Of a stretch of DNA of 64,000 nt, positions 43,268-56,522 are shown piece by piece. Both the position numbers and the translations under genes were made by a program. This stretch comes from Candidatus Eremiobacterota bacterium (lineage in GTDB: Bacteria; Vulcanimicrobiota; CADAWZ01; Ess09-12), in NCBI GenBank assembly GCA_031082125.1, contig JAVHLM010000003.1, forward strand, positions 124,001 to 188,000, written 5' to 3'. How positions within the stretch are numbered: the first letter of the stretch is position 1; the number at the start of each line of letters is the position of its first letter. The notes under the pieces were generated by a model, which had not been told where the DNA came from, searched no databases, and saw only the letters and a program-made list of their open reading frames with translations.

Positions 43268-45097
43268 TCAGGGATCCTGCGCCGCATTCTTGGCGCAGGA
43301 GAAGAGCTTGACGCCGTCAAGAAGGAGCTTCTTCACGGTCTCTTCATTATTTTTTTCAAGAGCGGCTTCAAGGTCACTCAGCATCTTTTCCATGGCATCC
43401 CTGTCAAGAGCACAGCTGTGGACCTTGAGAATTTTCTCAACGCCTGTGGGACTGATGGTCTCGCCGACATTGACAAGCTCCTCCTCGAGCTTCTCACCGG
43501 GCCTTGAGCCCTGTATCTCGATCCTGATGTCCCTGCCGACCTCATATCCCGAGAGGCGGATCAGGTTCTTTGCGAGATCAAGGATTTTAATAGGTTTTCC
43601 CATGTCGAGCATGTAAATCTCACCTCTCTCCCCGATGGCACCTGCCTGAATCACCAGCTGCACCGCCTCAGGAATGGTCATGAAATAACGGGTCATGTCG
43701 GCATGAGTCACCGTCACGGGGCCGCCGCTTTTTATCTGGTGCTTGAACGTGGGGATAACGCTCCCCCGTGAGCCAAGGACATTTCCGAAACGGACTGCAA
43801 TAAATTTGGTCGATGAGTGGGCAGCCCCCGTGGCGACCAGAATCTCGGCAATCCGCTTTGAGGCCCCCATGACGCTTACCGGATTCACTGCCTTGTCAGT
43901 GGAGAGGAAGATAAAGCGTTCAACTCCATATTTGCCTGCTGCCTCAACAAGATTCCTTGTGCCCTTGACATTATTCTTTATAGCCTCGCGGCTGTTGTGC
44001 TCCATGAGCGGTACATGCTTATGGGCGGCAGCATGAAATACCACCTGAGGCCTGACATTCTCAAAGAGCCAGTTCAGCATCGACCGGTCCTTGATATCTC
44101 CGATTACGGTTCTGAGAGGAATCGCGGTATGTGACGAGAGCTCCAGCCATATCTCATGAATGCTGTTTTCGCCATGGCCGAGCAGCACGAGCTCACGGGG
44201 CTCAAGCCGGAGCACCTGGCGGCAGATCTCGCTCCCGATGGAGCCTCCGGCGCCCGTCACCAGGACAGTATTGTTCTTGATATAGCTGGAAAGCCTTTCA
44301 AGATCGAGAGTCACCGGAGCACGCTCCAGCAGATCCTCGATCTGCACTTCACGTATCTGGTTTACCGCGATTTTTCCATCAAGTATCTCTGATATGCTCG
44401 GGATGATCTTGAGGGCCACCTTGAGCTTTTCGCAGCGCGACACAAGCTCCCTCACGTAGCTGGGAGAAGAAAGGGCAATGATGAGCTCATCAATGCTTTT
44501 GTTCTCAATGACCTTCGCGATGGTTTCCTTGGTGCCGAGCACGGGGACCCCATGTATCATCACATGAGCCCGGGTGAGGTCATCATCAATAAAGCCGACG
44601 GGAATATACCCCGCTCCCTTCTGGCGCTGCATTTCTCTTAAGGCCAGCTCTCCTATATCATTGGCACCGACGATCAGGACCCTCTTCTGCTGAACGCTTT
44701 TGTGAGGGCGTGCCCTCTCGCTCACAAGCCTGAGAACGAAGCGGATTCCTCCAAGGAAAAATATGTTTGCGAACCAGGCAATGGCGACAATGCCGCGGGG
44801 GAAAACCGATCCTGAGGTGACGAAGCTGAAGATAAGATAGGGTGCAAGAGCTGTGGACACGGCATACACGATGGTGATAAGCTCATAAAGCCCGGCATAA
44901 CGCCATACCTTTTCATAAAGGCCAAAGAGGTAAAAGACCACCACGCAGACAGGAGCTATAGTGAAAAAATAGAGGCAGGGCGTGATGAACCGAGCAGGAA
45001 TCTCTCCTTCAAAGCGGATGAGGATAGAGAGGCCTATGGCACAGGCTGAAAGAATGAGATCGACGCCCATAAAGAGAAACTTGCCGCTTATTTTCAC
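43268..45097 (-). CDS. CapD/FlaA1-type nucleoside-diphosphate-sugar 4,6-dehydratase, membrane-bound
   Basis: 609 residues. The N-terminal 125 residues hold four membrane helices, a first Rossmann-like domain follows (LIVGANDIGE, about 141-250), and the catalytic NAD-binding domain begins with TGAGGSIGSE at 281-290. In place of the usual YxxxK, this group has MxxxK: M410-x3-K414 (VMGASKRIAE), as in PglF and FlaA1 type UDP-GlcNAc 4,6-dehydratases. It probably makes a 4-keto-6-deoxy sugar precursor for surface glycan. Start is GTG 45095-45097 with GGGGG upstream. It is the last gene of the polysaccharide set that includes the ligase at 46378. Confidence 0.92.
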   Translation of the reverse strand: MKISGKFLFMGVDLILSACAIGLSILIRFEGEIPARFITPCLYFFTIAPVCVVVFYLFGLYEKVWRYAGLYELITIVYAVSTALAPYLIFSFVTSGSVFPRGIVAIAWFANIFFLGGIRFVLRLVSERARPHKSVQQKRVLIVGANDIGELALREMQRQKGAGYIPVGFIDDDLTRAHVMIHGVPVLGTKETIAKVIENKSIDELIIALSSPSYVRELVSRCEKLKVALKIIPSISEILDGKIAVNQIREVQIEDLLERAPVTLDLERLSSYIKNNTVLVTGAGGSIGSEICRQVLRLEPRELVLLGHGENSIHEIWLELSSHTAIPLRTVIGDIKDRSMLNWLFENVRPQVVFHAAAHKHVPLMEHNSREAIKNNVKGTRNLVEAAGKYGVERFIFLSTDKAVNPVSVMGASKRIAEILVATGAAHSSTKFIAVRFGNVLGSRGSVIPTFKHQIKSGGPVTVTHADMTRYFMTIPEAVQLVIQAGAIGERGEIYMLDMGKPIKILDLAKNLIRLSGYEVGRDIRIEIQGSRPGEKLEEELVNVGETISPTGVEKILKVHSCALDRDAMEKMLSDLEAALEKNNEETVKKLLLDGVKLFSCAKNAAQDP

Positions 45098-45136: not shown

Positions 45137-46300
45137 TTAGACCGCATAAAGCCCGCTGCAACGGGAACATATGGGGAGCCTGCCTTGACGGATCAGCTCA
45201 GTCCTGAAATGCCTCATGGATTCATTGTTCCATACAGAGGCAATTGTATCCTCATTGATATGGCCGATGATAATATCAGGATAATCATTGCAGGTAACAA
45301 TTTCACCGTTTTCGAGGACATTTGCGGCATACCAGGGGATATGGCAGCGCTCAATTCCTGATGTATAGTCATAATCCTTGTAATAATCGGAAATCTGCCA
45401 GGGTTTAAGAGCCGGGAAGAAAGAGTAAGGGATCCGGTGAGGTTTTTTCCGAATCCTCATGATGTCCCTTAAGAGGGCCGAAGGCTCGAGGCCCTCTCTG
45501 TCAAGCAGATAACGCTCCCAGGAAAGAGAGGGACTGTTAAAGGTATCCATAAGGAAATTATTGTATCCATGGCCTTTCTGCTCATCAACAGTGAAGGGAT
45601 GGCAGAATATGAAGCGTTCAATGCCCAGATCCTCGGCAAGGTCCAGGATGTCAGAGAGAAAATGATAATTCTCCTTGGTGATCATCAAGGTGCCGGTAAT
45701 CAGGGGATTTCGGCTCTTTTTTTCCTTCCTCACCCTGAGGAGGGCCCGCATGCCGCTTTCCATTTCCTCATAAGCATTGGACCGTGGATTCAAGTTCTTA
45801 TAGACCTGCTGTGTACCGTCAAGCGAGATCACAAGCTCAGCGATTTGATTTTCCACGAGAGAAGGCGCCAGATTCTCCAGATTATGGCCCCTGGTGGCAA
45901 GCACGCAATAGATCTTCCTCTCCCCAATTGTCTCCAGTACTGAGGCTATATAAGGGTGGGAAAGAGGCTCGCTCCCCCAGAGATAGATGTTTGAGCGCAT
46001 CTGGGAGACCTCCTCGAGAAGCTTGGCGAAAAGGGAGGAAGAGAGGTAGTTATCGCTTTCCCTGCGCTGGCTGGACTTTAACGGGGAGCATCCGAAGGAT
46101 CCGAACTGCCCATATATGAGGGTTTCCGAGTTTTCGGGGGGGGTCATCCTCACATTGACCACTTTTGGGAGACCTGGGCACTGAGCCTGTGAGATCCAAT
46201 AGTGCCACCTCGCCCCCCCCTTTTTCTGAAAGAAACCTTTCATTGATTCCCAGAGGAACTCAGGATGGTGAGCAAAAAGCTGAAGCTGCCTCAGTGGCAT
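45137..46300 (-). CDS. SPASM-domain protein of the radical SAM superfamily lacking the CxxxCxxC motif
   Basis: 387 residues. The fold of a radical SAM/SPASM protein is clear: the YLWGSEPLSHPYI segment matches the GGEP region, LVISLDGTQQVY and later TIM-barrel strands follow, and a SPASM-like cluster site is formed by C319, C337, C378 and C381 (CSRC). But where the family has T-x-x-C-x3-C-x2-C-GQWG, this protein reads T-P-P-E56-N-S-E-T60-L-I-Y63-GQFG: all three cluster cysteines are replaced with the surrounding residues still aligned. Radical chemistry at that site is therefore unlikely. It sits between the O-antigen ligase and CapD genes. Confidence 0.8.
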   Translation of the reverse strand: MPLRQLQLFAHHPEFLWESMKGFFQKKGGARWHYWISQAQCPGLPKVVNVRMTPPENSETLIYGQFGSFGCSPLKSSQRRESDNYLSSSLFAKLLEEVSQMRSNIYLWGSEPLSHPYIASVLETIGERKIYCVLATRGHNLENLAPSLVENQIAELVISLDGTQQVYKNLNPRSNAYEEMESGMRALLRVRKEKKSRNPLITGTLMITKENYHFLSDILDLAEDLGIERFIFCHPFTVDEQKGHGYNNFLMDTFNSPSLSWERYLLDREGLEPSALLRDIMRIRKKPHRIPYSFFPALKPWQISDYYKDYDYTSGIERCHIPWYAANVLENGEIVTCNDYPDIIIGHINEDTIASVWNNESMRHFRTELIRQGRLPICSRCSGLYAV

Positions 46301-46377: not shown

Positions 46378-48606
46378 TTATTTTGGCGGTGCCTTCTGCC
46401 TGAGCTCCGGATCAAGCTTCAGGGCTTTGTCGATGTACTCCCCTGCCTTTTTATTCTGTCCCATCTTTTCAAAAGCATATCCCAGAAACAGGTAGGTAAG
46501 CGGGAAAGAGGGATCCTTCTCAGATGCAAGGGTCAGGTTGCCTATAGCCTGCAGATTGTCGCCAAGCTGGTAGAAGCCGTAGCCGGCGGCAAAAAGTGCC
46601 GATGCATTCTCCTTGTTCAGCTTCAGGGATGTCTCAAGGAGGGCTATGGCCTCCCGGTATTCCTTTTTCTTCAGGTATATATTCGCCAGGCCCAGGTAAG
46701 TGTCTGAGAGCTGGAGCTTTGTGGGGTCGCGTCTGAAAAACCAGAAGCGCTCGAGGGTATCGGGGGGAAATCTCTTTATGGCATCACGATAGATTCTTTC
46801 AGCTTCATCAAAATTCTTCCGGCTGATGGCACAGGCAGCGCTGTCATTATAGAAGCTCGGGTAGTTAACGGGATCGAGCCTGAGGGCTTTTAAGAAGCAG
46901 GCATAGGCCTCATCATAACGGCCTTGCTCCCAGTACACTTTCCCCAGGAAATGATGGAGCACCGCCCTTGCAGGATCAAGCGCCACTGCCCGCTTGAGAT
47001 GCATTTCCGCCATTCTGAAATATTCCGGAGAGGTCTGGTGCGCCATAGCCTGGGTGAAATAGTGATTTGCCAGGTTCCTCTGCAACTCACTGTCATAGGG
47101 GTCAATGGAAGCGGCAAGACGGTAGCATTCAAAAGCCTCCTTCGTCCTGTTCATGGTACGGAGCGTATCGCCAGTCTCGGTATAACGGCGGGCAAAGTAC
47201 GGCATGACAAGAACAATTGAGCAGATCATGAAAAGAATACAGAAGCCGAACTGGACTGCCATGTGGCGGCTCAGCCCCTTGATGAAAAAATCTCCGTCTC
47301 TCTCTCCCTGAAAAGCGGCATGGTGCTCTTCTGCTTTGGAACCTCTTACGACACGCCCCATGCTTGAGGCAAAAAGGGCGACCCACACTGCGGGAATGGC
47401 AGGGAAAAACCAGTCAACATCGACAAAATGGTGCAGGAAGCTCCCCAATGCTCCAATACCGATCCCCACATAGGAATAATAAAGAAATGCCCTCTCCTTT
47501 ATCTCGGCCAGAAGTCTGAGATATCTGCTGAAAAGCGCCCACAAGAGCCAGAGAAAAGAAAGAAAGACTATCCAGCCCATCTCTGAGAGAAACTGAAAAT
47601 AGAGATTATGGGGGTACTTGGAAAAATGGCGTATGTCGTCTTCATAGAGGGGATAGAATCTCCCGTAGGTCTTGAGTCCTGTTCCCAAGAGAGGGTATTT
47701 AAGAGAGATCTTTACCGCTGCTTTCCAGAACTGAAGGCGGGCTTCCCGTGACATGTCTCCTTCCGAGACAAGCTCCACAGCCCGCTGCTTCAGTCTCTCC
47801 TGCACGGCAACCTGGTTTTTGCCGGGAGCCTTTTCATGAGGAAGAAAATAAGGAATAAAGAACATAAGCAGAGCAAGCGCCGCTGCCCTTAGAGCCACCC
47901 TCCTCCTGCTCTGGAACTGCACCTTGCCTAAAAGCGCAAGCAGTACCAGGAATGCCATGCTGACGGCAAGGCTCAGGAGCACTCCCCTTGAGAAGGTGAG
48001 TATGATACAGATCCCGAAGGTGAGGCTGCAAAGGCCGTATAGCATGCTCCTCGACATATCAGAAGCGCTCACAAAAAGCGAAAAGGCCAGCGGAAAAAAG
48101 AGGAGAAGGAAACCGCCGAAGACATCAATCTGATAAAAGGTGGAATAGAGGCCTCCCATCTCCTTCTGGAGGCCGTATTTAAAAAAGAGGCCTATGCAGC
48201 AGACTGCAAAAGCGACCATCATGAGAAAGTGAATAAAAAAATGATAGTACTGCTCAAGGCTCCAGAGATCATAGATGATGACAAAAAGAAGGACATAACA
48301 GAGGAGATTCGCCCATTCCAGGATGCTGTCATGGACATAGGAGGAACAGAACGAGGAAATCAGGGAAATGACCATAAAGAGAGCAAGGGGGAGTCTCAGC
48401 TCCCTGAAAGGCGGAAGGACCCTGAAGGGGATCAGAAGCCAGAATGAGGCGAAAGCGAGGGTAAAGAACCTGAAGAGGGATTCGGGCCTGGGATGATGAC
48501 CGCCAAAATCCAGGCAGAGATAGAAAAGAAGCAGGCAAATCCCGATCCTTGGAATCCAGGGAATGGATTTTTCAAAAAAACGCCCGGAGAGCGACAGTAC
48601 CATCAC
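46378..48606 (-). CDS. O-antigen ligase/Wzy-like membrane protein with C-terminal TPRs
   Basis: 742 residues. About 12 membrane helices occupy residues 15-470. The extracytoplasmic loop near 290-350 has the Wzy_C features (FWKAAVKISLKYPLLGTGLKTYG and a nearby KYPHNLYFQFLSEMG), which catalyse glycan polymerisation or transfer to lipid A core. Residues about 480-735 are TPRs (for example YDEAYACFLKALRLDP). The fusion of a ligase core and TPR tail is known in several phyla. It is the first gene of the apparent minus-strand unit with the SPASM protein and CapD. Confidence 0.9.
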   Translation of the reverse strand: MMVLSLSGRFFEKSIPWIPRIGICLLLFYLCLDFGGHHPRPESLFRFFTLAFASFWLLIPFRVLPPFRELRLPLALFMVISLISSFCSSYVHDSILEWANLLCYVLLFVIIYDLWSLEQYYHFFIHFLMMVAFAVCCIGLFFKYGLQKEMGGLYSTFYQIDVFGGFLLLFFPLAFSLFVSASDMSRSMLYGLCSLTFGICIILTFSRGVLLSLAVSMAFLVLLALLGKVQFQSRRRVALRAAALALLMFFIPYFLPHEKAPGKNQVAVQERLKQRAVELVSEGDMSREARLQFWKAAVKISLKYPLLGTGLKTYGRFYPLYEDDIRHFSKYPHNLYFQFLSEMGWIVFLSFLWLLWALFSRYLRLLAEIKERAFLYYSYVGIGIGALGSFLHHFVDVDWFFPAIPAVWVALFASSMGRVVRGSKAEEHHAAFQGERDGDFFIKGLSRHMAVQFGFCILFMICSIVLVMPYFARRYTETGDTLRTMNRTKEAFECYRLAASIDPYDSELQRNLANHYFTQAMAHQTSPEYFRMAEMHLKRAVALDPARAVLHHFLGKVYWEQGRYDEAYACFLKALRLDPVNYPSFYNDSAACAISRKNFDEAERIYRDAIKRFPPDTLERFWFFRRDPTKLQLSDTYLGLANIYLKKKEYREAIALLETSLKLNKENASALFAAGYGFYQLGDNLQAIGNLTLASEKDPSFPLTYLFLGYAFEKMGQNKKAGEYIDKALKLDPELRQKAPPK

Positions 48607-48662
48607 CTCAAAAAAGAAAATGCGTCAGATGCTTGGAATCGGGCTTTTTTTACTTATTCACG

Positions 48663-49934
48663 TCAGTCTTCTGCCGGTACATGAGCAAACAGTTCTTCAA
48701 GAGTCTCTTTCCCTTTTTCCATGCTGTAGCGCATAGCCCCAAAATTGGCCCCTGCCTTGGCGATAGTGATAAGAATATGTGATGGGCCTGCCGTCCTCAC
48801 CACCATGAGACCCTGTTCAAACTCAAGGACCCAGTAAATAAAAGCCTTGCCTTTTTCGTCCTGGCGGAACTCGCCTACGGCATCTATGCCGCTTTTCACT
48901 ATTTGTGCTATCTCATCAACTTCAATCGCCTCATTGTTGATGCTGTCTATTACAAAGCCCTCTCTTGAGAGGGTTATCACCGCAGAGACTCCCTTGGTCT
49001 TGATAAGGCTCTGGAGCACAGAATTGACTGAATCCTTGATTTCCTCATAGTATTTCCTCCGGGCCTCGGAGACTCCTCCAGCCTGTGCCCGGAGAGCTTC
49101 TTCAAGTTCTTTCTCGTGCTCTAATCTCTCGCGTTCTTCTCTCTCGCGTTCTTCTCTCTCGCGTTCTTCTCTCTCGCGCTCTTCTCTCTCGCGCTCTTCT
49201 CTCTCGCGTTCTTCTCTCTCGCGTTCTTCTCTCTCGCGCTCTTCTCTCTCGCGCTCTTCTCTCTCGTGCTCTTCTCTTTCGTGCTCTTCTCTCTCGTGCT
49301 CTTCTCTCTCGTGCTCTTCTCTCTCGTGCTCTTCTCTTTCGCGCTCCGCCTCCATTTCGCGCTCATGCTTCTGAGTAAGATGGCTTTCCCATTTTTCTAT
49401 GTACTGAAAGATCTCCTCAATATTGTGTTTACGCTTGAGAGCCATCTCGAAATGATATTCACAGATAGGATCAGTTTCATCATCCTTTACTGCCTGTTCG
49501 AGGTGCTTTATCTCGTCGTCAAGCATCTCTATCTCGAGCTCCCTCTGGCGACGATAAAGTCTCATCTCCTCAAGATCGGGCTCCTGCTCATGGTAAAGCT
49601 CGTACTTTTCCTGCACTTCATGAGGAGGAGGCAGAATATCAGAGAGCCTGTCATAAAGAATGCGGGCTTCAAGGTTTGAAGGGGCTCTCTCGAGGGCTGT
49701 CAGGATTTCCCTGTAAGATTCCAGGGGCATGTTCTGGAGCATATATATCCTGGCAAGAGCGAGATGAGCTTCATGGATATCTTCCTTGATGCAGGTTACC
49801 TTCTGATATGCCTGAAGCGCTTCAAGCCGCCTCCCGCGCCTCAGGTGATATTCGCCGTAAGCCATCAGGGTTGCGACATCGTCGGGATTATCCGAGAGAA
49901 GAGAGCTGATTTTCTCAATCTGCAGCTCCAGCAT
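48663..49934 (-). CDS. TPR - EREE coiled-coil - roadblock/LC7 protein
   Basis: 423 residues from ATG 49932-49934, which has GGAGG 8 nt upstream; a start 10 codons earlier has no site. Residues about 1-115 hold TPR helices. Residues about 120-195 are charged helices. About 200-280 is a perfect five-residue EREE[RH] repeat (about 15 copies), predicted as a single long charged helix. The last 120 residues form a roadblock/LC7 domain (GVSAVITLSREGFVIDSI... ILITIAKAGANFGAMRYSM). Roadblock proteins dimerise and often regulate Ras-like GTPases. The same domain occurs in the next gene upstream at 50082. Confidence 0.85.
   Translation of the reverse strand: MLELQIEKISSLLSDNPDDVATLMAYGEYHLRRGRRLEALQAYQKVTCIKEDIHEAHLALARIYMLQNMPLESYREILTALERAPSNLEARILYDRLSDILPPPHEVQEKYELYHEQEPDLEEMRLYRRQRELEIEMLDDEIKHLEQAVKDDETDPICEYHFEMALKRKHNIEEIFQYIEKWESHLTQKHEREMEAEREREEHEREEHEREEHEREEHEREEHEREEREREEREREEREREEREREEREREEREREEREREEREREERERLEHEKELEEALRAQAGGVSEARRKYYEEIKDSVNSVLQSLIKTKGVSAVITLSREGFVIDSINNEAIEVDEIAQIVKSGIDAVGEFRQDEKGKAFIYWVLEFEQGLMVVRTAGPSHILITIAKAGANFGAMRYSMEKGKETLEELFAHVPAED
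49126..49345 (-). repeat. 15-bp tandem repeat, about 15 copies
   Basis: Direct repeats of 15 bp (ctctctcgcgttctt and close variants) run through the coiled-coil part of the roadblock gene. Each encodes EREE plus R or H. Copies form two blocks: R-type at 49126-49260 and H-type from 49261. The unit is a multiple of 3, so copy-number change would alter rod length only. Confidence 0.93.
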
Positions 49935-50081
49935 GAGGAACACCTCCACTATGAGATAAGACAACCCTGTCTGCCAAGCTTCTCCACGGAAAAATTGATT
50001 TCCTCCCTTATCACAGCCCGGCCATTCGCAGGGCCTGCGATTCAGCCAGGAGACGCCTGGAGCAGCCTGGAGCAGAAAAGC

Positions 50082-50438
50082 TTAGTTCGTAAGGCCTTCA
50101 ATGGCCTTCTTGCTTTTCCGTATCTCCAGCCGGATTCTCCCGAGATTCACCCCCGAAGAGGTGAAAATGGTGAGAATATGCCCCCTGGCCAGTATCACGG
50201 AAGTGATACTCAAATCTTCAAACTCGATATAAGACTGGTTCAGACCATCTTTCTGGAATTTAAGCGCCGCCTCGATGCCAATCTGAGTGCTCCTGTGGAG
50301 AAGCGGTTCGAGTGGCGCAAACTCATCAAGATTCTCAATTGTCTTGTCCAGTATCGTCCCATCCGGATCGGAGAGGATCGCCCCAAGGACCCCCTCAATT
50401 TTACAGAAGTTCTCGAGAATTTCCTTCAATTCAGACAT
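50082..50438 (-). CDS. Roadblock/LC7-domain protein
   Basis: 118 residues from ATG 50436-50438, placed 6 nt after GGAGAACACC; an upstream start adds 11 residues without a site. Nearly the whole protein is a roadblock/LC7 domain (GVLGAILSDPDGTIL; SVILARGHILTIFTSSGVNLGRIRLEIR). These domains dimerise and act as GTPase regulators (MglB) or scaffold elements. It lies 29 nt after the DUF4388-like gene and probably belongs to the operon running from 52917. No MglA-like GTPase is visible in the window. Confidence 0.9.
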   Translation of the reverse strand: MSELKEILENFCKIEGVLGAILSDPDGTILDKTIENLDEFAPLEPLLHRSTQIGIEAALKFQKDGLNQSYIEFEDLSITSVILARGHILTIFTSSGVNLGRIRLEIRKSKKAIEGLTN

Positions 50439-50467
50439 GGTGTTCTCCGCTTTCACATTGCCCTTGC

Positions 50468-51352
50468 TCACGCAATAGGCCTCACATTGACAAAGTCGCC
50501 ATCCTTCACGTTCATTTTCTTCATAAGCTGGCCGGCAAGGGAAAGATAACCGCCAAGATGCTTGGCTGCGGAAGTCTTGAGGGTATAAATCTTTCCGTCG
50601 GCAGTTTCAACCTCTATGGTAATGGTTGCGGTAGTCTTGATTCCCCATTCCTTCATCAGGTGTTCTTCTATCTTAACCGTGTCGGCAGCCTTGATGAAGC
50701 CGCCCATGGTTTTCGCAATGAGCTGCCTCTCTTTCTCGAGTTCTTCCTGCACCGTTCTCTTTTTGAACTCTATCTCATCAGCCTTTTCCGCAAGCACATT
50801 TATCCTTGCCCCTTCCTTGAAAATGATATCCAGGAAGGAATTGACGGCGTCAAGGCCGCAGAGTATCTGCCCATATTCATTGGCAAAACTATCGGTGACA
50901 ATCTTGCCATGATCTATAAGGAGCATATGATCTGCATCCTTGATGATCACCTGGAGAATACCGGTTATATTATCAGCCTCCAGGGCACTGAGAACCTTTT
51001 TGAACTCCTTTTTCTTTACCTCATAGTCCTTATACTGGTAATCATAGGCAAAAATAGTGGAGAGAACGCTCACGATCTGGGGAGAGAGCACATAAGAACT
51101 CACGGGGACCTCTTTGCTTTTCACTTTATTGATGAGCCGCGCCGACTTGAGGACCTTTATCTTCGGATCCTCAATCTCAAGGGCCCTTATAATTTCTCCG
51201 TGAGAAAAGAAAATGACGCCTTCCGTCTTGAAAATCTCCATCAGCACATATCCGGTAAATCCCTGCTGCTCCAGGTTCTGTATCATGGTATTGATATCGG
51301 TAAAGGGAAGGGTAATTTTTTCTATGAGGGGATTTCCCTTTGGTAATAGCAC
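50468..51352 (-). CDS. PATAN/DUF4388-like two-domain protein
   Basis: 294 residues. The segments GYVLMEIFKTEGVIFFSHGEIIRALEIED (core GVIFFSHGEIIRAL) and GILQVIIKDADHMLLIDHGKIVTD repeat the G-x-x-x-V/L-...-F-x-x-G-x-I pattern of PATAN/DUF4388 domains, suggesting two copies (about 15-95 and 115-195). A coiled linker and a small alpha/beta C-terminal domain follow (KTTATITIEVETADGKIY ... LSLAGQLMKKMNVKDGDFV). PATAN domains occur in response regulators and gliding or pilus polarity proteins and are linked to GTPase control. Its stop lies 29 nt before the roadblock start; it starts 11 nt after the membrane protein stop. An LC7-like partner is plausible. Confidence 0.75.
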   Translation of the reverse strand: MLLPKGNPLIEKITLPFTDINTMIQNLEQQGFTGYVLMEIFKTEGVIFFSHGEIIRALEIEDPKIKVLKSARLINKVKSKEVPVSSYVLSPQIVSVLSTIFAYDYQYKDYEVKKKEFKKVLSALEADNITGILQVIIKDADHMLLIDHGKIVTDSFANEYGQILCGLDAVNSFLDIIFKEGARINVLAEKADEIEFKKRTVQEELEKERQLIAKTMGGFIKAADTVKIEEHLMKEWGIKTTATITIEVETADGKIYTLKTSAAKHLGGYLSLAGQLMKKMNVKDGDFVNVRPIA

Positions 51353-51363
51353 CTTGCTTCCTC

Positions 51364-52917
51364 CTACTCTTCGCTTTTCTCTTTTGCCTTCTTGAGAGCA
51401 CCCTCTATGGCCAGGAATTTGTCATCCCTTGTCTGAGAAGCGGCATCTTGAGCTTTCTTGGGTGCATCTTCTCCCTTATCTGGCTGGACATCAAGCGAGA
51501 TGATCTTAGGTGCTTTCTTGACACCAGTAGGCAAACTCTCCGGTTTCGTAGGAGATTTCTGCTCGGGAGCAATATCTTCCTTCTTTTTGTCCACCGCGAG
51601 GCCAATGATCTTTTTATCCTTGCCCGCCGGGGGCTTATCGCCAGTTTCCGGCATCTGCGCCGCAAGCGATATCACCTTCTTGAGGGGCTTTTTCGGTGAT
51701 GGTGCCTCTGCCTCCTGTGCCGCAGCAGGTGTCGGGGCTCTTTCTTCACTTTCCTTTCTCCTGGGCAGCGCCTCGGTCTTCACCTTCTCAGGCTCAGGCT
51801 CCGGCTCTTTCTCCGGCGGCTTCTCGGCCGCTTTCTCAGGCTCAGGCTCCGGCTCTTTCTCTGGCGGCGTCTCTGATGCCGCTTCATCAACAGTGCCTGT
51901 ATCAGCTTTTTCTCTCTCTTCGTCAGCTTCGGTCTTCTCCTGATAAGCCTCTTCCTCTGCAATGGAGAGGGCGGGCGTGGGCTCACTGGGCGACTCTTCA
52001 GGAGGGGAAACCTTTTCCTGCAGGAGAGGGGAAGGCTCTCTTTCGGGTGCTGATGGCTCTGGAGGGCTTTCTTCCTCCTCCTGCACTACAGCAGCCTCCA
52101 CCGGCGGAGCTTTATCCTCCGCCTCACCTTTTGCTTTTGACGGAGCCTCACGCTTACCCTTGTCGCTCTTGAGAAAGACCGACCATGGCTTGTCTTCCTC
52201 TTTGGCCACATCGTCCTCAGTCTTGCTTTTCTTGAGAAGAGCCTTCCAGGGGTCATCTTCTTCTGCTTCTTCCTGGTGAGGCGGCGGCTCCTCTTCAACC
52301 CTGATCTTCCTTGTCGGTTTGCCCGCATGCCTCTCTTCCGGCTCCTGAGTGGCCTTCTGCATGAGATCCCTCCATCCGCCCTCACCGCCGGGAGGGGCCT
52401 CGGCACTCATCACTGCATGTTTCTCCTCTCCCTTCGCCTGAGGCAAAGGGGGCTCCAAAACAGCCGGTTCAGGTGCTGCATCAATATGCACCACACGTTT
52501 TGCGGGTTTATCACGGCGTTCTTCATGCACCACCGCCGGTTCACTTACTTCCTGGGCGAACTCTACCACTGCCGGCGGTTCCTGGGCACCATGCTCCACT
52601 TCCTTGGTGCGCGAGGAAGAGGCAAATTGCACACTTTCTTCCTTAAGCAGGGCTCTGAAGGGATCGTTCTCGCTGGATTCTTCCTCGACGACACTCACTG
52701 TTTCCGTCGCTTCCTCCGAGGAGGCGGCAAGTTTCTTCTTCTGGAACCAGTCAATGAGCTCCCACACCATCAGTACCACGAATATCCCAAGAAACAGCAT
52801 CATGAGCTGGAAATATTTCGTCTTGATACTTTCCTGAGGGAGAGCAGGCTGGGCACTCCATGCGGGAAGAATTGAGAGAAGAGAGAGGGACACTAGACAG
52901 AATAGTTTCCTTATCAT
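51364..52917 (-). CDS. Membrane-anchored disordered Pro/Glu-rich protein with repeated PW motif
   Basis: 517 residues from ATG 52915-52917 (GAGG 10 nt upstream). A cleavable-looking signal (MIRKLFCLVSLSLLSILPAW) is followed by one membrane helix at about 36-58 and then about 450 residues of disordered, Pro/Glu/Lys-rich sequence with no Cys. Four copies of a short hydrophobic motif appear in this tail: NDPFRALLK (84-92), GGWRDLMQK, DDPWKALLKK and DKPWSVFLKS (encoded between 52160 and 52670). The motif spacing suggests docking sites for a repetitive partner. Predicted topology places the long tail in the cytoplasm. It is first of a minus-strand operon with the PATAN-like and roadblock genes. 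Confidence 0.85.
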   Translation of the reverse strand: MIRKLFCLVSLSLLSILPAWSAQPALPQESIKTKYFQLMMLFLGIFVVLMVWELIDWFQKKKLAASSEEATETVSVVEEESSENDPFRALLKEESVQFASSSRTKEVEHGAQEPPAVVEFAQEVSEPAVVHEERRDKPAKRVVHIDAAPEPAVLEPPLPQAKGEEKHAVMSAEAPPGGEGGWRDLMQKATQEPEERHAGKPTRKIRVEEEPPPHQEEAEEDDPWKALLKKSKTEDDVAKEEDKPWSVFLKSDKGKREAPSKAKGEAEDKAPPVEAAVVQEEEESPPEPSAPEREPSPLLQEKVSPPEESPSEPTPALSIAEEEAYQEKTEADEEREKADTGTVDEAASETPPEKEPEPEPEKAAEKPPEKEPEPEPEKVKTEALPRRKESEERAPTPAAAQEAEAPSPKKPLKKVISLAAQMPETGDKPPAGKDKKIIGLAVDKKKEDIAPEQKSPTKPESLPTGVKKAPKIISLDVQPDKGEDAPKKAQDAASQTRDDKFLAIEGALKKAKEKSEE

Positions 52918-53036
52918 ATCTTTAAGCCTCGTACCAGTATTATTTTGCGTTCTCAAGCCATTCTTAAGGATTTCACCTGAACGCTGAAGATCACAATTTT
53001 AAAACTCCCTTTCCTGCACGGAAGAACGTGGATCTC

Positions 53037-56000
53037 TCAATCCTCTGAATAAGCCGAGAAGGGAATGACCTTCCCTTCAGAATCGGAGAGAATCTGCGAA
53101 AGCTCATTTATCTTCTCTGACACATCCTTGTATCTGATATCGATAGCATAGCACTCCTGGAACATGCCAAGAGCATCCTCAATGGTGCCCATCTCCTGGT
53201 AGGTGAGCCCCAGGTTGTACCGGATCTCCTGGAGATCCTCATCAGAGAAATCAAGATCCAGGGCTCTCTGGAACTGCTTGATGGCAAGCCTTGTAAAGCC
53301 CTCTTTCTTGAAGGCCTTGCCAAGAAGGGTATGGGCCTCAAGTATATGGGCATGATCCTTTGAGGCCTTCTGGTATTCCATGATTGCCTCTTCCATAAAG
53401 CCCATTTCCTCGTAAAAAAGCCCCAGATTTATGTGGGCCATAGCCTCATCATTGCCGACCTGCACCGCTTTCTTATATTCTTCAACGATTCTGGACATGA
53501 GACCTTTTGAGACCACCTGCTTGGCAAAATTCACGGCAAGCTCAAGGGCTCCATGCTTGGCATGAATAATAGCGAGCCTCGTCATTCCCTCGTAATGACC
53601 GGGTTCCGCCTCTACGATCTTCTCATAAAGGGGCTTGGCTTCCTCAAGGAAGCCGTTGGAAAAGAGGGCTTCAGCCATTCTGAAGATGAAATCCAGGCTC
53701 TCAGGCTTCCACTCCTGGATCTGCTGAAAGAGCCCCAGGGCCTGGGCAAGCTCCCTCTGCTTGAGATGGAGCTCAATCATTCCGAAGTAGACCTCAATGA
53801 CTTCCTGGGTGCTCTGGGCGTTGAGATGAATAGAAGCGATCCGCTCTTTTACCCTCAGCGCCTGGGAGATATTCCCGAGATCCTCGTACTGGTAGGCCAT
53901 AAAGCCGAGGATTTCCAAGGCTTTGCCCCAGTCATCCTTCCGCTCATACATCTTCTCAATCTGCTCCTGAAGGCAGAGCGCTCCCTCCATCACTCCCTCG
54001 TGGAAGAGCTCGCTCACCATCCTCTCAAAGCTCTTTATCCCCTCATCGGCAAGACCTTCCTTGAAATATACCTCCTCCACCATGGTGAAGATTTCCCGTT
54101 CGCGGTCGAAATCGCCCTGACGGATCAGCTCCTTTATTATCTCGCTGTATTGGCTGAGGGCATTCTGGACCTGGTTGTCACGGTAGAAAAGACTGGCAAT
54201 CTTCTCCCGGTAGTCCCAGTAAAGGCTCATGTTGCTCTGAGCCTTCACCAGTTCGGCCATCTTCAGATTCAGCTCGATCACCTTGGAGATCTCACCCTTG
54301 TCAAGATAGAGCTGTACCAGTTCCTCCAGAAGTTTCTGGGCTTCTTCAAGATGATTCTGCTCAAGAAAAATCTGGCTCAGGTTCTGGCGAAGCTCAAGGT
54401 TGAAAGGCTGAAGGGCGATGATTTCCCTCACCACCTCCTGAGCCTTTTCCACCTCGTTCTCTTTCAGATAGTTCACCATCAGATACTTGTAATGGTCCGT
54501 TGCTTCCTCAAAGCGGATCTGCTTGACAAGAATGTCTATGAGGTTCTGGCGGAACGTGATATTTTCGGGCTCAATCTCCAGTATCTCATTGAGAATCAGG
54601 GTGGCGGGGATGTCAAGAGACTTGGCAAGATAAAGCTGTGCCAGTTTTGAATACTGCACAAGCGCCTCTCTCACGTTCACACGCTTGTAGAGGGCGCCAA
54701 GGCTCCTGTGGGCTATCATGTTCTCAGGCGAGAGATCAAGAATCCTGTTGCACATCCTGATTGCTTCTTCCAGCATCTCCATGCGCAGATATATGTTGAA
54801 AACCACCAGATAGCCGTTAATTGCCTTCTCTATGTGTCCTCGGGCCGCCTGCACCTCGCAGAGCCTCTCCCTCAGCTCAATGTTGTCAGGCACAAAAGCG
54901 AGTATCTTCCGGTAGATATTTTCCACTTCCCTGTAGTCGGCCTTGCCGAAAAGCATCTCACTGATTTTCTTGGTCTCATCAAGCGCCTGCTCAAGATCGC
55001 CCTCTTCCAGGCACTTCTCAAGAAGGATCTTGCGCACATCGGTATTAGTAGGCTCTAGCTCAAGGATTTTCTGATAGGTTTCATAAGCAACGTGCCATTC
55101 ATCCATTTTGACATGGATGTCGGCTTTTGCAAAGAGGGCCTGCTTGTATCCCGGGGTGTTGCGCAGTATGTTCTCCAGGATTTTAAGAGCGCTGTCAAAA
55201 TTGCCGTTTTCTTTTTCCTTGATGGCCTCCTGGTAGTAAAGATCGACCTGATCGGGAAACTTTACCACCAGCTCCTTGTTCAACGAGTTGGCTTTTTCCT
55301 CATCGCCGCGCTCCCGAAGTATTTTCACCACGTGGAGGTACTGGTCAAGGGCTACCTGGTGCTGACCCTGCCGGTAATAGATCTCCCCCAGGATTTCGTT
55401 CGCCTTGAGGTTATTGGGATCAATGTCAAGCATCTTCTGGCATACCGAAAGGCCTTCGACAAGCATCCCCTTCTCCAGGTAAGTCGAGGCAAGGGAGAGA
55501 AACTCGGGTATGGCCTCTTCTGAATTGCCATCGTTGAGGAGGAGGCCTATGAGCTTATGGCGGGCCGTGAGGTTGCCGGGATCCATCTTCAGGATCTGCC
55601 GGTAGATATCTATAAGCTTTTTCCGCACCTCTACATTGTCGGGATCAATATCATTGAGCCTTTCATAGAGACCTACCACCTTGTCGAGCAGCCCCTCCTC
55701 GGTATATATCTGGGCAAGCTTCTTGATGCACTCAACGGCCTTTTCCACCGAGCCCTTCTGGGCATAGATCTCGCTGAGTCTCTGGAGGACTTCCTTGTTG
55801 CGGGGCTCAAAATTGAGGATCCTTTCAAAGGCTCTTATGGTGTCAACGAGCTGGTTGTTCTTCATATAGAGCTCGCCGGCGTTCCTGAACCATACAATGG
55901 TTCCCTGGGGGGTTCTCCCTCCCCTGATGTAGATCTCGCCGAGCATCTCGTAAGCATAGGCGGCATCGGCGGGAGCAAGCCTGACTACCTCCTGGAACTC

Positions 56001-56522
56001 CCCCACTGCCTCCTTGTCCATGCCTTTTTTCATGTACGCCTGGCCAAGAGCCATATGGACCTTTGCGTCCTGCGGTGACAATTCATAGCAGGCCCTCAAA
56101 TACTGGATTGAATCATCAAGATGCCCTTTAGTCTGAAGAATCATGCCCATCTGGTAAAAAATCTCGCCCTTGATATTATTGACCAGATCCTTGAGCTGCT
56201 CGCCGGAGCCGCCGCGCTGCCCCATCAAAAAGCTCTTCTTGGCTGCCTGGCCCTCAAGGCCGATGATTTCCTGGTACACCGTGAGGGCATCATCAAGGGC
56301 ACCCCGTTCCTGACATGCTCTTGCCCAGTTCAGGTATTCCTGGACCGCTATGTCAAATTCACCCTTTTTCATGAAGATGTTTACAATATTCCGGCGCACG
56401 TTGCTGTTCTGAGGCTCAAACTGGAGGGCCCTCTGGTACATATCGACGGCCTCGTCCAGCTTGCCCTGGGTGGCAAGCGTATCGCCCTGCTTGACAAACA
56501 TCTCGAATTCTTTACTTGACAT
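53037..56522 (-). CDS. Giant TPR protein, 1161 aa
   Basis: Almost the entire protein is tandem TPRs of 34 residues (about 30 repeats), many perfect (for example HVAYETYQKILELEPTNTDV). Several longer loops are spaced along it, and the C-terminus lacks a tail. No signal or membrane segment. GGGGAGGTTAGT precedes the ATG 56520-56522. Paired with the even larger TPR protein 51 nt upstream, and probably in the same unit. Likely a rod-like scaffold; partner unknown. Confidence 0.9.
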   Translation of the reverse strand: MSSKEFEMFVKQGDTLATQGKLDEAVDMYQRALQFEPQNSNVRRNIVNIFMKKGEFDIAVQEYLNWARACQERGALDDALTVYQEIIGLEGQAAKKSFLMGQRGGSGEQLKDLVNNIKGEIFYQMGMILQTKGHLDDSIQYLRACYELSPQDAKVHMALGQAYMKKGMDKEAVGEFQEVVRLAPADAAYAYEMLGEIYIRGGRTPQGTIVWFRNAGELYMKNNQLVDTIRAFERILNFEPRNKEVLQRLSEIYAQKGSVEKAVECIKKLAQIYTEEGLLDKVVGLYERLNDIDPDNVEVRKKLIDIYRQILKMDPGNLTARHKLIGLLLNDGNSEEAIPEFLSLASTYLEKGMLVEGLSVCQKMLDIDPNNLKANEILGEIYYRQGQHQVALDQYLHVVKILRERGDEEKANSLNKELVVKFPDQVDLYYQEAIKEKENGNFDSALKILENILRNTPGYKQALFAKADIHVKMDEWHVAYETYQKILELEPTNTDVRKILLEKCLEEGDLEQALDETKKISEMLFGKADYREVENIYRKILAFVPDNIELRERLCEVQAARGHIEKAINGYLVVFNIYLRMEMLEEAIRMCNRILDLSPENMIAHRSLGALYKRVNVREALVQYSKLAQLYLAKSLDIPATLILNEILEIEPENITFRQNLIDILVKQIRFEEATDHYKYLMVNYLKENEVEKAQEVVREIIALQPFNLELRQNLSQIFLEQNHLEEAQKLLEELVQLYLDKGEISKVIELNLKMAELVKAQSNMSLYWDYREKIASLFYRDNQVQNALSQYSEIIKELIRQGDFDREREIFTMVEEVYFKEGLADEGIKSFERMVSELFHEGVMEGALCLQEQIEKMYERKDDWGKALEILGFMAYQYEDLGNISQALRVKERIASIHLNAQSTQEVIEVYFGMIELHLKQRELAQALGLFQQIQEWKPESLDFIFRMAEALFSNGFLEEAKPLYEKIVEAEPGHYEGMTRLAIIHAKHGALELAVNFAKQVVSKGLMSRIVEEYKKAVQVGNDEAMAHINLGLFYEEMGFMEEAIMEYQKASKDHAHILEAHTLLGKAFKKEGFTRLAIKQFQRALDLDFSDEDLQEIRYNLGLTYQEMGTIEDALGMFQECYAIDIRYKDVSEKINELSQILSDSEGKVIPFSAYSED

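Follow-up and report, generated by a model that had tools for sequence, protein, structure and literature searches.

What can a radical SAM protein still do once the cysteines that would hold its catalytic cluster have been replaced? The question is raised by a gene lying among polysaccharide genes, whose product an earlier reading made from the DNA letters alone (hereafter the sequence-only reading) proposed to be either repurposed or the non-catalytic partner of an active enzyme. We examined this gene, its surroundings and its relatives; the window, below, is the whole stretch of DNA analysed (64,000 nucleotides).

A radical SAM relative in a polysaccharide operon

The gene and its neighbours in the window are as follows:

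45137..46300, minus strand: pseudo-radical-SAM/twitch (SPASM) protein, 387 aa; intact ORF with an ATG start
46378..48606, minus strand: upstream neighbour, Wzy_C O-antigen ligase/polymerase with a TPR domain, 742 aa (Pfam Wzy_C, 79.9 bits, plus TPR; 77-bp gap)
43268..45097, minus strand: downstream neighbour, CapD/FlaA1-like nucleotide-sugar dehydratase, 609 aa (Polysacc_synt_2, 383 bits; CoA_binding_3, 66 bits; 39-bp gap)
48663..56522, minus strand: rest of the conserved operon, with a gene order found wholly or largely in the relatives G007, G008, G010, G013 and G016

The 387 codons run without a stop, and the pseudo-radical-SAM protein aligns over its full length with active radical SAM/SPASM proteins at 25-28% identity. 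SPASM is the one Pfam model to score above its cut-off, at residues 319-381 (47.6 bits, 2e-12; cut-off 21.5 bits), and the Pfam Radical_SAM model gave no match at all to the protein; homology to the radical SAM superfamily is evident from relatives found at E values down to 3e-58.

The proposed surface glycan operon was borne out, as the Wzy/TPR and CapD-like genes flank the pseudo gene. Both are co-directional with it, and no terminator-like site was found on its strand in either the 77-bp or the 39-bp gap. The rest of the operon encodes a TPR/(E/R)-rich protein with a roadblock-like end, a roadblock-like protein, a DUF4388 protein, a 530-aa protein and a 1161-aa TPR protein, and beyond the CapD-like gene lie what appear, by sequence inspection, to be ribosomal proteins L13 and S9. 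The order TPR - (variable protein) - DUF4388 - roadblock-like - (kinase) - TPR/roadblock-like - Wzy/TPR recurs, wholly or largely, in the five relatives listed above. The slot that follows Wzy/TPR is variable, holding sugar-transferase, aminotransferase or radical-SAM genes in relatives: a sugar-phosphate transferase, an SDR, a DegT aminotransferase and CapD in G007; a transferase, DegT and CapD in G016; a B12-binding radical SAM protein, a GT2 and an active twitch radical SAM protein in G008; and a B12-binding radical SAM protein in G046. In the genome studied here (G000) the pseudo gene is the slot's sole occupant ahead of CapD, and G007's sugar transferase has its closest homologue elsewhere (C15:88176). 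Genomes of this order with the active gene described below gave no match to this Wzy/TPR gene at E <= 1e-15.

Of note, radical SAM genes (B12-binding, twitch) directly follow Wzy/TPR in this same slot in two other lineages (L147:3659-7207 and L153:3171-4754). The operon of TPR, DUF4388, roadblock-like and Wzy/TPR genes itself was seen across several families of the phylum (window positions 46378-56522, and loci L130, L147 and L150-L152), with a histidine kinase included in it in relatives.

The catalytic site and the auxiliary cluster site

Four features within the gene bear on its chemistry:

46091..46144, minus strand: degenerate cluster loop, codons 53-70; in the family alignment, T-PP-E56-NSE-T60-LI-Y63-GQFGSFG replaces T-xx-C-xxx-C-xx-C-GQWGExG
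45140..45358, minus strand: twitch/SPASM region with C319, C337, C378 and C381; the four Cys are invariant in 47/47 members and kept here
45968..45976, minus strand: former GGE SAM motif, now G109-S110-E111; the middle Gly is invariant in 47/47 active members
45788..45790, minus strand: N171 in place of the SAM carboxyl/ribose-binding Arg, which is present in 46/47 active members

Reading the codons confirmed the reported replacement of the cluster cysteines: residues 53, 56, 60 and 63 are T, E, T and Y (E56 at 46133-46135, T60 at 46121-46123, Y63 at 46112-46114), leaving the protein without the CxxxCxxC ligands of the catalytic [4Fe-4S] cluster. The flanking motif, described as matched at every position, does fit the family at T53, N57, G64, Q65, G67 and G70, but departs from its consensus at three others (L58>S, R59>E and W66>F). 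Near the loop are two further cysteines, C41 and C71, that do not belong to the twitch set.

At the other end of the protein, C319, C337, C378 and C381 are all present, as had been claimed. They align one-to-one with C169, C187, C232 and C235 in the twitch domain of BtrN (PDB 4m7s), a catalytic radical SAM dehydrogenase. The cysteines that the sequence-only reading called SPASM-type form a BtrN-like twitch set of four, without the full seven-cysteine SPASM set. Such a set would serve one auxiliary [4Fe-4S] cluster, which we infer the protein to bind.

To place these changes in context, we took as reference an alignment of 47 active members, in which 18 columns are invariant. The pseudo protein keeps 14 of the 18 (Y106, G109, E111, P112, T136, S159, P296, C319, G332, C337, G346, R366, C378 and C381); the four it loses, C56, C60, C63 and G110, all belong to the catalytic site. 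At columns conserved in 46/47 members, N137, R171 and G172 are lost, and Q65, Y306 and P376 are kept; at positions conserved at 95% or above, it keeps 8/8 in the SPASM region and 8/17 in the barrel. In a leave-one-out control no active member lost more than two otherwise invariant columns, indicating that the four losses seen here are not a matter of chance. A Fisher test of catalytic-site versus other losses gave p = 0.011, with categories chosen after the data were seen.

We took the roles of the SAM-binding residues from SkfB, in which Gly160-Gly161-Glu162 serve the amino and carboxyl groups of SAM; this GGE motif and Arg223 orient those groups, and Ser211 together with Arg223 positions the ribose (PMC6231123). 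The family Arg follows the ribose-motif Ser159 by 12 residues, the same spacing as from Ser211 to Arg223 in SkfB. The pseudo protein keeps S159 and has an arginine two residues beyond N171 (R173), but its SAM-binding set as a whole is broken (GSE, N171). The GSEP-like loop that the sequence-only reading counted as retained does keep G109, E111 and P112, but has lost G110, the middle glycine of GGE (now S110). Its suggestion that only the catalytic cluster was lost did not hold, given the change of GGE to GSE, the replacement of Arg by N171 and the disappearance of the conserved N137. As judged from these residues, both the cluster site and the conventional SAM site have been damaged. With cluster ligands, SAM-binding residues and N137 gone, the protein is not expected to bind the catalytic cluster or SAM in the ordinary manner.

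AlphaFold2, run on a 48-sequence alignment, predicts that the partial TIM-barrel fold is intact and the former cluster loop disordered (mean pLDDT 87.8, pTM 0.89), residues 64-82 forming the only segment below a pLDDT of 50. An active paralogue modelled from the same sequences reached a pLDDT of 92-96 across its cluster loop. Searched against the PDB with Foldseek, the predicted fold matched SkfB, BlsE, DesII, SuiB and PqqE, the best matches being radical SAM enzymes.

The active paralogue, other relatives and named families

Besides itself, the protein's best match in its own genome is encoded at C15:20157-21305, shares 26% identity with it and carries ITNLCNLRCKMCGQWGEKGYN and IWGGEP. This is an active-looking paralogue, of the kind with CxxxCxxC that the sequence-only reading had suggested looking for. 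It lies on another contig, outside the pseudo protein's operon, beside a GT2-type glycosyltransferase. Its close relatives, in four genomes from its order plus G007 from its phylum, have CxxxCxxC without exception. The paralogue also has a Lys/Ala-rich N-terminal extension of ~95 residues, in frame before the conserved start (L022, upstream of 1501), which was not seen in the relatives aligned with it.

No orthologue of the degenerate protein turned up in 149 genomes of the phylum. A scan of genome contigs yielded 50 relatives from many phyla (Spirochaetota, Planctomycetota, KSB1, archaea and others), all 50 with CxxxCxxC; none of them was an E/T/Y orthologue, in a scan made from two short peptide seeds that a diverged orthologue could escape. 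We also searched 33 genomes that carry a relative for second copies, 10/11 of which had CxxxCxxC; the eleventh (L188) gave no tblastn match, and its motif therefore falls outside this count. Between them, the phylum genomes, the genome-contig loci and the second copies speak against a conserved E/T/Y subfamily, and the cross-species conservation that had been envisaged gave way to a pattern seen in one genome only. In genomes carrying the active gene, the pseudo gene was not found. Relatives with intact cysteines, which the sequence-only reading regarded as evidence against itself, do exist; their occurrence in the paralogue, its orthologues and distant members, however, points to a derived loss here and is no refutation. 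The loss of the catalytic site is, on this comparison, derived and not family-wide.

The active radical SAM/SPASM relatives resemble the pseudo protein in their four auxiliary cysteines, GQWG-type loop and predicted fold. Yet CxxxCxxC is present in the own paralogue and all 50 loci, and those aligned have GGE and, in all but one, the SAM-binding Arg, whereas none of the three is intact in the pseudo protein. The neighbours of the active genes vary between loci (a glycosyltransferase in 7, a second radical-SAM-like protein in 7), which rules out a fixed operon partner of the active family. In the tree, the pseudo protein sits on a terminal branch of 3.51 changes per column, the median being 0.3. 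With so long a branch, the tree does not support a close position for it (for instance, as a recent duplicate of its own paralogue), and the fast evolution that the branch reflects fits repurposing as well as relaxed selection.

Pseudo-SAM/SPASM proteins are already known as a kind, and NCBIfam names one such family, TIGR04347 (pseudo_SAM_Halo). The present protein matches it weakly and locally (31.1 bits against a cut-off of 525) and is excluded from it; the active paralogue matches it better, at 61.2 bits. With the score so far below the cut-off and the active paralogue scoring higher, the catalytic loss here appears independent of that family. TIGR04150 is presumably another such case, a pseudo-rSAM family of Bacteroidales. 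The best NCBIfam match is TIGR04317 (W_rSAM_matur, tungsten cofactor oxidoreductase radical SAM maturase), at 91.5 bits for the pseudo protein and 111.6 bits for the active one; membership was rejected at a cut-off of 380. The pseudo protein differs from this family in having no catalytic motif, and no tungsten oxidoreductase was present among the neighbouring genes checked. The active relatives reached no NCBIfam equivalog. TIGR04304, which we take to be the SPASM domain protein of the GeoRSP system, where it has a radical SAM partner, is alike in concept only, as a SPASM-bearing accessory protein, and was absent among the matches listed for the pseudo protein.

Possible roles of the protein

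The sequence itself shows that the loss is selective, that the auxiliary ligands are retained, which genes lie around this one and that an active paralogue exists. These features are most consistent with a pseudo-radical-SAM protein, seen in one genome, that selection retains as an accessory of the polysaccharide operon, non-catalytic and probably carrying an Fe-S cluster; we give this reading a probability of about two in three. In this scheme, a paralogue of an active radical SAM/twitch enzyme would have lost the ligands of the catalytic [4Fe-4S] cluster and key SAM-binding residues, keeping the partial TIM-barrel fold and the four cysteines for one auxiliary [4Fe-4S] cluster. It would then work without radical chemistry, as an Fe-S-stabilised accessory of the surrounding polysaccharide machinery: a subunit for binding, scaffolding or regulation, or one that takes part in electron transfer with another of the cell's radical SAM enzymes. 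Production of the protein and its exact role among these are likewise inferred. It is conceivable, though doubtful, that within such a working component of a Wzy/CapD-type operon the auxiliary cluster acts as a redox sensor or electron donor.

The sites retained carry the most weight for this accessory reading. All invariant positions outside the cluster ligands and GGE were kept along a branch of 3.51, which favours a fold and an auxiliary site that are still under selection, and retention outside the catalytic site on so long a branch is best explained by purifying selection. The idea of a repurposed or non-catalytic protein thus stands in that the loss is selective for the catalytic site and the rest is kept, with the correction that the loss extends beyond the cluster cysteines. 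Counting against the accessory reading, the pattern occurs in one sequence only, and the long branch fits relaxed selection too.

Relaxed selection is the core of the first alternative, a decaying duplicate whose function is being lost and that has yet to acquire a stop. The long branch, the single genome and the partial loss of barrel conservation speak for it, as does a GC3 of 0.598 against 0.745 in the active paralogue, although the operon neighbours are similar (0.606-0.631). We nevertheless consider decay unlikely, as the reading frame is open and alignable throughout, the invariant positions all survive apart from those of the cluster ligands and GGE, the four auxiliary cysteines among them, the predicted fold is confident, and the gene is kept in a tightly spaced, operon-like row.

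Slightly less probable is a specific form of the accessory reading, in which the protein would pair, as the non-catalytic half, with the active paralogue or with some other radical SAM enzyme of the genome, and its auxiliary cluster would pass electrons to that partner. Candidate partners are at hand in the paralogue at C15:20157-21305 and about 126 radical-SAM matches in the same genome, and there are precedents in Dph1-Dph2, where the cluster of Dph2 serves to reduce that of Dph1 (PMC8153317), and in PapB, which requires intermolecular electron transfer (PMC10470005). However, the active paralogue lies outside the operon, beside a glycosyltransferase on another contig, and genomes with the active gene lack the pseudo gene.

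Less probable again is an enzyme with a metal or cofactor site rebuilt in the old barrel (for example, from E56, Y63, C41 and C71), or a sugar-nucleotide binder. The two extra cysteines near the loop, a barrel pocket that keeps E111, T136 and S159, and neighbouring genes concerned with nucleotide sugars would suit such a site; on the other hand, disorder is predicted for the residues after Y63 and the loop containing C71, the arrangement matches no known alternative ligand pattern, and nothing conserved is available for comparison. Finally, an assembly or sequencing error, the latter named by the sequence-only reading as its possible undoing, is negligible even though a run of eight C immediately precedes the loop codons: neither TGC nor TGT occurs in any frame of codons 53-70, and the three loop codons are at least six nucleotide substitutions away from three Cys codons, so neither a frameshift nor a stray read error can explain the missing cysteines, and G110, N137 and R171 are lost as well in an operon that is native and common to relatives.

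Pseudoenzymes have been well studied for kinases and proteases. For pseudo-radical-SAM proteins, we found no relevant paper in the open literature searched; only database family names record them. The protein described here offers a clean case, with catalytic cluster and SAM site erased, auxiliary ligands and fold kept, and an active paralogue in the same genome to compare it with. One could use it to ask whether an auxiliary cluster serves any end beyond the radical reaction itself.

The genome as a whole (7.4 Mb) has a rich radical-SAM repertoire, with 126 Radical_SAM and 27 SPASM matches. Close to two active radical SAM/SPASM genes in it we observed a second, different pseudo-radical-SAM candidate (L129:3564-6131; G000:C7, about 168063-170630, minus strand), an 855-aa protein without CxxxCxxC that has two SPASM-like cysteine regions, one matched by Pfam SPASM at 218-267 and the other by TIGR04085 at 708-786 (58.7 bits).
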